Part shown: piece after piece, positions 22,850-51,164 of the stretch
How positions within the stretch are numbered: the first letter of the stretch is position 1
Layout: every line of letters starts with the position of its first letter
Assembly: GCA_963681505.1 (NCBI GenBank)
Contig: OY811978.1
Span: 5,874,586 to 5,938,585 of the forward strand
Direction of reading: 5' to 3'
Source: Eunapius fragilis
Lineage: Eukaryota; Porifera; Demospongiae; Spongillida; Spongillidae
DNA length: 64,000 nt
Program-made: the position numbers and the translations under genes
The notes under the pieces: model-generated
The model's input: only the letters and a program-made list of their open reading frames with translations
The model's database searches: none
What the model was told of the DNA's origin: nothing

Positions 22850-25800
22850 GGGACAGTTCACGCGAAACTGGCGTATCACGTTTTTATATATAAAGTTATA
22901 AAAATGATTCACTTTGAAATCGCTACATCTCCCGAACCGTTAATGCTATTGACTTCCTATTTTCAACACTTCATACTACATCATTTCTCTCTGGTAAAAT
23001 AAATTTTGGGCTCTTGCATTAGCTTCGTGCCAGTGTTGCAACGTCCGATACCCCTTGGGGCTCAAACCGGCCATATCTTTCGGCAGGACATCTCAATTAA
23101 CTTCAAATTCGGTTTATACGTAGAGGGGTCCTGTACCTATCGATTTGTCCTGTTCGTTAATTTTTACTTGATCCGTTACGGAGATACAGCTGTGCAAAGT
23201 AATTGCACATTTCTCGTTCATTTCGCGCCATTAACCTACTCCAACCTGGTTCTCGCTACTCCGAGCACATGAATATACAATAACCTCCCGTGCCCATGCC
23301 ACTACATGTACAACTGCAAGTGCCACCGTTGTTCGTACAAACGTCAGTGGTTCTCTTTTATAACAAACAAGATTCGTTAAGCGATCAAAATGCGTGGGAT
23401 TCAGCTACCATCACCATACAAAACACGGTACGTACTACCAGTACCGATACGCGCGCACAACAATATGTGTCCCTGTCGATTCGGTCATACTCTTTGGGTG
23501 TCACTCATTGCGTGGCCATTTATAGGCTCACAACCTATGATAGTACGTCAGAGCCATGAGGTAAAGTGCACGGTGTATCAGCTAGGCTATGGGAGAGACG
23601 TGGTCCAGTTAAAGACACATGCAGCGCAGCTATGCTGGAACATGTAACCCTTCCTTATTGTCGGGATTTGCGTTCTGCTGGCACATATGTTTTAAACGCC
23701 CACCGTTTTTCATTTCATCTGCATGGCTGGCACACACACACCCATGAACCAACACATACACACGTCTCACGTCACACTTATACACACTCTTTCCACTACC
23801 AGTATTCTTTCCCCTTGCTGTACACCCTGTAAATAGTTATGTGCTACATGGATTCACACATAAGCTTTGTCTATTTTGGTTATGTACAGTGCTTTGACTG
23901 GCTTACTATCCAACCCTCTTTCTCAATTATTTATATTCTGACTGATGTGTTTTTCACGTGTGTAACTGGATTGTGTGTTTTATACACAGTGGTATAGGAG
24001 CATGGGGGCAACCCCTCCCCCCATTGGTTGTATGTACTGGATTAATGTGTTGTACGTACTGGACTATTTGTTCCTGTCTCACAGTACCTGTCACATCATG
24101 ACGTACCATGCCTCATGTCCCATATTCCATTACATGCATCCATTTACACACTCACACACTCATACACACAACACTCACAACTATCCCATGCCAATCACTA
24201 TATACGCTGAAGCTATGAGTGTGTACCATTGAGAGGTTTAAAAAGACTTAGGACTTACTATTTATTACCTTCCTTTGTTGCATAAAATTTCCAGGGCCCT
24301 GATCTTTATCTTTCGGGATAAAGCAGGAATAATATTCCTGCCAGGCTTATGTACAAAAGTATGTTTACAGAGTGGTAGATCTACATGTAATATCACAATA
24401 GCACAGATTCCTAGAAGGGGCCCATGTATAATGCTATACATACACACGCACACACACACACACACACACACACACACACACACACACACACACACACACA
24501 CACACACACACACATACACACAAACCAGTGCTACTTAGAAATAGTGGTTCTGGTGGGTATGACTGTCAGTTTGCTATGACCAGAGATGCAAAGCCACCCA
24601 TGGAAGTCACCCATGGAATATTGACTCTCATGTGATGGTAGCAAATAGATAGGCTAATGCCTTTGTGTTTAGGACTCTGCCATTAAGAGACATATGGTCA
24701 CATACCCACCTGAGGATCAGAGCAGTTGGTGTCATTTTTTTTTTGGATCTGGGGCAGTGCTGCTTCCAAACATGTTACAGACCTGTGAGTTCCATAGGCT
24801 TTTGCATTTGGTCATATGTGTAGCAACAAACTTGACAGTCATCCTCACCTGAACCACTAATTCTTCTTGTTAGTAGCATTGGAATTATCAGTGTGCGTGT
24901 GTGTATGTGTGTGTGTATGTGTGTGTGTGTGTGTGTGTTTGTGTGTGTGATGTGAGTGTTTGTGTGTGTGTAGCATTGGAACCTTTCTTTCTTGGAGGAT
25001 GTGCAATTTATTTTTGTAATACGTTGACAAGGATTGGACGGTACGTACTACCAGTACCGATATGCGCGCACAACATCATGTAGAAATCGTGTCCCTGTCA
25101 ATTTGGTCATACTCTTTGGGTGCCACTCATTGCGTGGCCATTTATAGGTTCACAACCTATACATCAGAGCCATGATATATAGTGCACGGTGCATCAGCTT
25201 GGCTAAGGGAGAGGCGTGGTCGAGTTAAAGACACATGCGGGCTGGAACACATGTAACCCTTCCTTATTATTGGGATATGCGTTCTGCTGGCACATATAAC
25301 ACCCACCATTTTTCATTTCATCTGCACGGCTGGCACACACACCCATGAACCACACCCATGAGCATACACACGTCTCATGTCATGACTATTCACACTCTTT
25401 CCACCATAAGACACTATTCTTTTCCCCTTGCTGTAAACCCTGTAAATTGTTATGTTGTGTGCTACATAGATTCACTCATATGCTTTGTCAATTTTCTATA
25501 TCTTTCAGTTACAGTGCTTTCACTGACCTACCTCTTTCTCAACTATTTTTGTTATGTTTATATTCAGATTCATTCTCTTTATGTTTGGTCCTACATGTGC
25601 AAGTAACATTACCTTCTATTTCTTTAGTGGTCATTATTGTATCAGCACAAAATGGCAGTATGTCTTGTCAGACTCATGCCCTCCACTGTATGCTCATATC
25701 CCATGACCTCGTCTACATGGTCATGTCCATAGGCCTCCATGTCACTGATGTGGATGTATTTCACACATGCAACTGGACTGTGTTGCATGTATTGGACTGG

Positions 25801-49100: not shown

Positions 49101-51164
49101 TAGTGGTTCAGGTGAGGATGACTGTCAAGTTTGTTGCTACACATATGACCAAATGCAAAAGCCTATGGAACTCACAGGTCTGTAACATGTTTGGAAGCAG
49201 CACTGCCCCAGATCCACAAAAAAATGACACCAACTGCTCTGATCCTCAGGTGGGTATGTGACCATATGTCTCTTAATGGCAGAGTCCTAAACACAAAGGC
49301 ATTAGCCTATCTATTTGCCACCATCACATGAGAGTCAATATTCCATGGGTGACTTCCATGGGTGGCTTTGCATCTGGTCATAGCAAACTGACAGTCATAC
49401 CCACCAGAACCACTATTTCTAAGTAGCACTGGTTTGTGTGTATGTGTGTGTGTGTGTGTGTGTATGTGTGTGTGTGTGTGTGTGTGTGTGTGTGTGTGTG
49501 TGTGTGTGTGCGTGTGTGCGTGCGTGTGTATGTATAGCATGATACATTTACTTTTATACATAAGCCTGGCAGGAATGTATAATGCTATACATACATTTAC
49601 TTTTATACATAAGCCTGGCAGGAATATTATTCCTGCTTTATCCCTAAAGATAAAGATCAGGGCCCTGGAAATTTTACAATCCTACATAGGACCTACTGCC
49701 GTAGGTCCTGATATAACAAAGGAAGGTAATAAATAGTAAGTCCTAAGTCTTTTTAAACCTCTCAATGGTACACACTCATAGCTTCAGCATTTATAGTGAT
49801 AGGCATGGGATAGTTGTGAGTGTTGTGTCTGTATGAGTGTGTGAGTGTGTAAATGGATGCATGTAATGGAATATGGGACATGAGGCATGGTACGTCATGA
49901 TGTGGCAGGTACTGTGAGACAGGAACAAATAGTCCAGTACGTACAACACATTAATCCAGTACATACAACCAATGGGGGGAGGGGTTGGGAGGGGGGCCTT
50001 TGCCCCCATGCTCCTATACCACTGTGTATAAAACACACAATCCAGTTACACACGTGAAAAACACATCAGTCAGAATATAAATAATTGAGAAAGAGGGTTG
50101 GATAGTAAGCCAGTCAAAGCACTGTACATAACCAAAATAGACAAAGCTTATGTGTGAATCCATGTAGCACATAACTATTTACAGGGTGTACAGCAAGGGG
50201 AAAGAATACTGGTAGTGGAAAGAGTGTGTATAAGTGTGACGTGAGACGTGTGTATGTGTTGGTTCATGGGTGTGTGTGTGTGCCAGCCATGCAGATGAAA
50301 TGAAAAACGGTGGGCGTTTAAAACATATGTGCCGGCAGAACGCAAATCCCGACAATAAGGAAGGGTTACATGTTCCAGCATAGCTGCGCTGCATGTGTCT
50401 TTAACTCGACCACGTCCCTCCCATAGCCTAGCTGATACACCGTGCACTTTACCTCATGGCTCTGACGTACTATCATAGGTTGTGAGCCTATAAATGGCCA
50501 CGCAATGAGTGACACCCAAAGAGTATGACCGAATCGACAGGGACACATATTGTTGTGCGCGCGTATCGGTACTGGTAGTACGTACCGTGTTTTGTATGGT
50601 GATGGTAGCTGAATCCCACGCATTTTGATCGCTTAACGAATCTTGTTTGTTATAGAAGAGAACCACTGACGTTTGTAAGAACAACGGTGGCACTTCAGTT
50701 GTACATGTAGTGGCATGGGCACGGGAGGTTATTGTATATTCATGTGCTCGGAGTAGCGGGAACCAGGTTGGAGTAGGTTAATGGCGCGAAATGGGCGAGA
50801 AATGTGCAATTACTTTGCACAGCTGTATCTCCGTAACGGATCAAGTAAAAATTAACGAACAGGACAAATCGATAAGTACAGGACCCCTCTACGTATAAAC
50901 CGAATTTGAAGTTAATTGAAATGTCCTGCCGAAAGATATGGCCAGTTTGAACCCCGAGGGGTATCGGACGTTGCAACACTGGCACGAAGCTAATGCAAGA
51001 GCCCAAAAATTATTTCACCAGAGAGAAATGATGTAGTATGAAGTGTTGAAAATAGGAAGTCAATAGCATTTACGGTTCGGGAGATGTAGCGATTTCAAAG
51101 TGAATCATTTTTATAACTTTATATATATTAAAACGTGATACGCCAGTTTCGCGTGAACTGTCCC
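43125..51164. mobile_element. Giant palindromic (foldback) element C, 8040 bp
   Basis: Same termini as element A (GGGACAGTTCACGCGAAACT and its complement), between (TA)n flanks. As a whole it matches A in reverse: C's left inner arm corresponds to A's right inner arm (shared AGTCCCAACAATTTTTTCAG near 45948 and complement near 28020) and its spacer is the complement of A's, including the nested MITE (47015-47230). CA/TG tracts: 44742-44808, 45174-45234, 46436-46500, 46857-46891, 47609-47665, 49437-49530. 49545-49630 has a local duplication around ACATTTACTTTTATACATAA. No enzyme-like open frame. Confidence 0.9.

Follow-up and report, generated by a model that had tools for sequence, protein, structure and literature searches.

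Among transposons with long terminal inverted repeats (TIRs), a closely comparable case is Galileo of Drosophila, whose TIRs are 98-100% alike within a copy. In the portions of the published accounts used here, repair of one TIR from the other was proposed, and insertions in one TIR were reported to have become part of both (PMC3573991, PMC4168063). For Tetris of Drosophila virilis, the account likewise describes, in the sections used, TIR repeats that cluster by element in two of the three complete copies, and its authors considered this as possible homogenisation (PMC4079207). Long, foldback-like TIRs that are alike within each copy, as in Galileo, are also found at the locus described here.

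The window, i.e. the whole stretch of 64,000 nt that was analysed within the 218.9-Mb genome (24 contigs), includes three transposon copies with GGGACAGTTCACGCGAAA ends, designated A, B and C (Table 1). A and C are foldback-like, with near-identical arms of 1.5-2 kb followed by sequence that is ~90% alike, with arm segments repeated internally, and with no transposase. In A, the longest listed open reading frame has 244 aa and gave no Pfam match at 0.01; the longest one in C has 166 aa. The outer 0.4 kb of B is ~89% like A, both ends of B resemble the left end of the autonomous element considered below, and its two outer arms are identical across 1250 bp. Near the middle of B (34640-34864), a 42-bp tandem repeat is found in both orientations. 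As judged by comparison of four window frames with Pfam, the sole match is to PIG-N and lies outside the elements, in a minus-strand frame at 41249-42160 that may belong to a host gene. Screens of the window for tRNAs and for Rfam families at the gathering threshold gave no match.

Table 1. Elements A, B and C and the zones of their arms, in window coordinates.
Feature	Position	Strand	Remarks
Element A	22850..30826	+	7977 bp; ends GGGACAGTTCACGCGAAA / TTTCGCGTGAACTGTCCC; reference orientation
Element B	30841..38015	+	7175 bp; related family, adjoins A; ends as in A
Element C	43125..51164	-	8040 bp; family of A, orientation opposite to A
A left outer arm	22850..24314	+	homogenised zone; 15 E sites and one X site against C
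A right outer arm	29350..30826	-	homogenised zone; partner of A left 22850..24314
C left outer arm	43125..44607	+	homogenised zone
C right outer arm	49645..51164	-	homogenised zone
A left transition zone	24315..24846	+	contains CA tract 24438-24522
A right transition zone	~28804-29349		counterpart of A left transition zone
C left transition zone	~44608-45136		counterpart of A left transition zone
C right transition zone	~49114-49644		counterpart of A left transition zone
A left inner arm	24847..25549	+	side-specific; pairs with C right
A right inner arm	28127..28803	-	side-specific; pairs with C left
C left inner arm	45137..45824	+	side-specific zone
C right inner arm	48465..49113	-	side-specific zone

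A first genome search, in which 40 of 2736 candidates were scored, provided 23 further copies (labelled L), making 25 A-type copies together with A and C. Three of these (L017, L018 and L026, the left end of the last lying beyond the stretch taken) were left out before the counts, and 22 were complete. The 22 copies were selected by outer-arm likeness to A, and the family is larger and older, with cores that range down to 89-90% identity among 40 matches scored. They were oriented by their cores, all 44 arms were aligned, and sites were classed as element-type (E), side-type (S) or cross-type (X). For lineage counts, sister copies were counted once and L015 was taken out for a local inversion of ~210 bp in its left arm, leaving 17 lineages and 136 pairs. 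The inversion in L015, seen relative to its relatives, lies near offset 1300-1530 and is adjoined by an arm difference, at 1299, in reversed phase. In L041, a ~1.36-kb insertion is present at offset 466 in one arm only. L029 and L031 lie on different contigs with flanks that are 99-100% alike and have 6/7 arm differences in common; given the matching flanks, a longer stretch was duplicated, and the pair was not counted as a jump.

TA tracts are the insertion site of most of the 22 copies. Target duplications of 4 bp are legible in L030 (ATAT) and L015 (ACTT), and their length is masked by the TA tract in most others. The spacer between A and B (30827-30840) is 14 bp long and TA-rich. Several other copies directly abut a related element at one end or both, as expected if TA tracts at each other's ends are targeted, and in L010, L014, L020, L022, L027 and L028 the adjoining sequence ends in a related terminus (GGGACAGTGTCC or similar) at the same TA tracts.

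An earlier note on this DNA had paired the outer arms of A and C by element and the inner arms by side, using ten diagnostic strings. All ten are present in the arms named, and A and C are oppositely oriented. Some of the strings recur. A has one additional GGTCCAGTTAAAG as well as one CCTGCCACATC and one GGTCGAGTTAAAG, and C has one additional CCTGCCACATC and two additional GGTCGAGTTAAAG; outside the elements, AACTGCAAG occurs twice and AACTGAAG four times. In the four-arm comparison of A and C, 15 E sites and one X site at offsets 92-1465 and a single S site at 1771 precede 32 S, two E and one X at 1998-2628. The proposed switch in pairing therefore exists, but the position given for it, 24100-24440, was too far out. 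In the left arm of A, the E sites of the outer zone end at 24314, and S sites begin at 24620 and become dense at 24847, which places the switch at 24314-24620. Core orientation and site pairing support a common ancestor for A and C, which are now inverted relative to each other, as well as the proposal that arm-to-arm copying is confined to the outer arms.

The same pairing holds across the family. Over all pairs of the 22 copies, E, S and X sites number 2870, 71 and 13 at 0-1500 bp, 787, 393 and 50 at 1500-1950 bp, and 170, 8602 and 122 at 1950-2700 bp. Counted by lineage, they number 1795, 14 and 4 at 0-1500 bp, are mixed (308, 221 and 32) at 1500-1960 bp with the CA tract removed, and reach 53, 4320 and 73 beyond 1997 bp with the microsatellite at 2050-2130 removed. 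The two arms of an element form a clade in nine of 22 cases in the outer tree, a number never reached in 10000 shuffles of partners (mean 0.42, maximum 4), and in none of 22 in the inner tree, which is split into all left and all right arms with support 0.90. Two more genomic copies outside the 22 agree, the first with E/S/X of 230/0/0 in the outer 1450 bp and 1/301/2 in the inner part, and the second with 118/0/1 over its outermost 460 bp, up to an insertion present in one arm. B and three of its relatives gave E 39, S 2 and X 1 over six pairs, one of them uninformative; a fifth element, with no right terminus in the piece taken, had been dropped. The B elements were unoriented, hence S and X are not distinct there.

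Distances follow the same course. Per 150-bp bin of the outer 1.2 kb, arms differ by 0.25-1.1% within an element and by 0.6-3.1% between elements, and between elements the left-left, right-right and left-right distances are similar. Thus, the outer arms hold almost no memory of side. Over the outer 1450 bp, mean divergence is 0.50% between the arms of one element and 1.40% between elements, with 1.58% for the cores. Beyond 1950 bp, divergence between the two arms of an element is as high as that between opposite-side arms of different elements (6-12%), and same-side arms differ by 1.7-4.1%. The boundary is a two-step one, with pairing by element to 1500 bp, mixed at 1500-1960 bp and by side from 1998. 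Given that the bases at 1998 and 2001 are specific to the side in 16 of the 22 copies, this step is probably older than the radiation of the copies (mean core divergence 1.6%).

The reading favoured here, with a probability of about 0.8, is recurrent, GC-biased gene conversion from arm to arm in resident copies, acting on the outer 1.5-2 kb and failing where the arms have diverged. When one arm of an element suffers a break or strand invasion, its partner arm would serve as the template for repair by non-crossover gene conversion, which could run in either direction and would favour G/C. Where the arms differ by ~10%, beyond 1.96-2.0 kb, exchange would mostly fail, and the CA microsatellite at 1.59-1.67 kb would also hinder it, to a lesser degree. 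Left- and right-specific inner sequence would persist where exchange fails. We infer that the exchange proceeds by homologous recombination, that divergence blocks it and that it happens in resident copies; the role of divergence is correlational, and an identical profile would result if breaks were limited to the outer arms.

The copying was recurrent and lineage-specific. In the outer 1500 bp, 40 lineage-private alleles, from 13 of the 17 lineages, occur in both arms and 88 in one arm, as compared with 7 and 27 at 1700-1997 bp, and 1 and 84 beyond 1997 bp (outer versus inner, Fisher p=2e-9). These final counts further omit a cluster of adjacent changes in L012 (1150-1170) and take L015 from the comparison set, two exclusions that postdate the first private-allele run. 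That run, with 18 lineages, gave 45 both-arm versus 168 one-arm alleles in the outer zone, 86 of the 168 sitting in the one copy with the local inversion, and 1 versus 86 in the inner zone. The sole inner both-arm private allele (2110) falls within the converted stretch of L029/L031. L020 has a private both-arm allele at 116, and its core differs from that of L022 at 8/2481 sites; this allele indicates that copying continues after lineages split.

The private alleles bear on two alternatives. In the first, a single ancestral event equalised the outer arms, and selection on the ends maintained them without recurrent copying. Such an event probably set the boundary, given the 16 of 22 copies that are side-specific from 1998 on. 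However, almost no lineage-private both-arm alleles are predicted by it, and 40 to 45 were counted; selection that matches private alleles across 1.5 kb of arm would also be implausible, and the explanation is hardly credible. In the second, ectopic conversion, both arms receive one donor sequence from a different element. Outer-arm distances partly track core distances (Spearman 0.48, 136 pairs), hence some exchange of this kind may occur. The counted both-arm alleles are nevertheless absent from the other sampled copies, in a sample that is not exhaustive and could lack a donor, and the converted stretch of L027 has, at 118 and 187, alleles confined to its own clade. Ectopic conversion is therefore judged highly improbable.

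Converted stretches run in either direction and their end points vary. Both arms are right-like at 1998-2125 and side-specific from 2172 in L009. In L029/L031, both are left-like to 2125, right-like at 2172 and side-specific from 2191, and in L013, L015 and L027 they are right-like at 1998-2001 only and side-specific from 2013. L027 has lost the differences at 187, 212, 243 and 272 that are common to L013 and L015, always to the left allele, but not those at 486, 575 and 626. In L013, a private both-arm allele at 1039 stands alongside older differences that are retained at 626 and outwards; unless this one site reflects a parallel double mutation, the converted stretch of L013 is internal and was not begun from the terminus. 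Both ends of a converted stretch are bracketed in L027 and, by a single site, in L013 only. Some short stretches of the inner zone are likewise alike in both arms (e.g. L016/L023 at 2047-2090; L020, L021, L022 and L024 at 2222-2300). Copying initiated at the element ends was considered as well and is disfavoured by the ratio of within- to between-element divergence, which is flat (~0.28-0.47) across the outer 1.2 kb, and by the internal stretch of L013.

The ratio of AT-to-GC to GC-to-AT changes is 19:10 among alleles present in both arms and 19:48 among those in one arm (96 alleles, p=0.0012), and was 20:13 versus 18:45 in the first run with fewer exclusions (p=0.0039). Such a bias is not expected from assembly error, which bears on the explanation that assembly or polishing made the two arms of each element agree. 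Near-identical arms ~5 kb apart are a setting prone to polishing error. However, none of the 22 copies is free of arm differences in the outer 1400 bp (20 of them have two or more), and copies on different contigs agree exactly, L010 and L011 being equal at 7972 sites, so that an artefact of this kind is exceedingly improbable.

The arm differences can also be followed through transposition. L010 (contig 8) is identical to L011 (contig 4) at all 7972 compared sites, and their flanks do not match. Together with two further sister pairs with non-matching flanks, they retain 27/27 arm differences, all in phase (10/10 in L010/L011, 13/13 in L016/L023 and 4/4 in L021/L024), one of them at base 4 of the terminus. 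The whole sister copies differ by 0, 5 and 2 substitutions, respectively. Three further arm differences are common to the clade of L013, L015 and L027. The three pairs and the three-copy clade thus represent about five jumps without full homogenisation, for which the 95% upper limit of the per-jump chance of homogenisation is ~45%. Unconverted differences are inherited via transposition.

These jumps speak against an obligate role for the mechanism suggested in the earlier note, hairpin copying or end synthesis during transposition. Each jump would synthesise one end from the other, e.g. through a hairpin, and new copies would start with identical termini. Homogenisation restricted to the outer arms is in line with this mechanism, and end copying in some jumps is compatible with the data. 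As an obligate step of transposition it is not supported, since the sister pairs retain all of their differences and the three-copy clade its three, and since converted stretches differ in where they stop and one of them is internal. Transposition-coupled end copying is accordingly considered very unlikely; hairpin-mediated repair in a resident copy, or copying in a minority of jumps, could contribute. Conversion is read here from one assembly, in which losses of differences are not exactly datable, and some may accompany jumps.

Elsewhere in the genome, a 16.4-kb element (L032, L033) has ends as in A and carries an 891-aa frame with DUF7869 (2.3e-15) and C2H2 fingers, as found in Pfam, the only family library searched. 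By sequence, this frame gave weak zinc-finger matches only among solved structures, and no literature was found for DUF7869 by name. It occurs at 100% (rounded) identity in five places, of which four tie for the top score, hence the autonomous partner seems, from these sequences, to have been recently active. Inverted arrays of a short repeat, ~42 bp as judged by match spacing, lie inside the 16.4-kb element. The arms of the autonomous element, checked in one element, are alike across 384 bp only, at 89.6%, and are not homogenised. In the simplest reading, arm-to-arm conversion would need long, near-identical arms and fade at roughly 10% divergence. The transposase might itself trigger conversion, with abortive cuts at one resident end mended from the other end. 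This addition to the favoured reading is doubtful; if it applies, the long inverted arms would be an adaptation that keeps both ends usable, limited by left-right divergence.

By the AT-rich 4-bp duplication read in two copies and the size of the putative transposase, the A/C family would fit a Sola2-like assignment, the likeness being to the published description. As far as the cited part of that description extends, Sola2 of dictyostelids has AT-rich 4-bp target duplications and a transposase of 888 aa, close to the 891-aa frame here. However, its TIRs measure 12-21 bp, whereas those of the autonomous element here extend over 0.4 kb and those of the frame-less copies over 1.5-2 kb, and the ACTT of L015 departs from the AWWT form of one Sola2 group (PMC3627910).

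Other systems with inverted repeats, compared by the cited portions of their accounts, share some of these features. Tm1, a Mutator/foldback family of root-knot nematodes, also has long TIRs and many copies, but its TIR pairs average 93.15% identity, are identical in 5/61 and show little homogenisation (PMC3169594). Recombination between the TIRs of Wolbachia ISWpi1 similarly removes a TIR difference by conversion within one element; its TIRs are however 23 bp long and inversion accompanies the event, whereas here 27/27 sister-pair differences are in phase and 1299 is reversed in L015 (PMC3004938). Tetris is non-autonomous with long TIRs, as here, but has tandem repeats inside the TIRs and is represented by three copies only (PMC4079207). 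Galileo belongs to the P superfamily, unlike the present family, and the site-by-site breakpoint, the direction of copying and the transposition test are features of the present data (PMC3573991, PMC4168063). As judged by titles and the openings of abstracts among the matches listed, no site-by-site conversion map of a eukaryotic transposon set against its transposition history was found in the open-licence literature.

With numerous recent copies of a single inverted repeat in the same genome, conversion can be separated from transposition, its end points mapped and the divergence at which it fails estimated. In such elements, TIR-to-TIR divergence understates age, and outer-arm and inner-arm trees answer different questions. 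Palindrome P6 of the human Y chromosome, in the cited part of its description, also has inverted arms matched by conversion, with a G/C bias, kilobase tracts and rare inversions (PMC3723533). P6 is, however, one large palindrome, whereas many mobile copies with an inner zone where conversion mostly fails are present here, and with these conversion is testable against transposition. The process is therefore one known from Y palindromes and suggested for the TIRs of Galileo, of which the elements described here are a well-resolved case in a putatively Sola2-like family.
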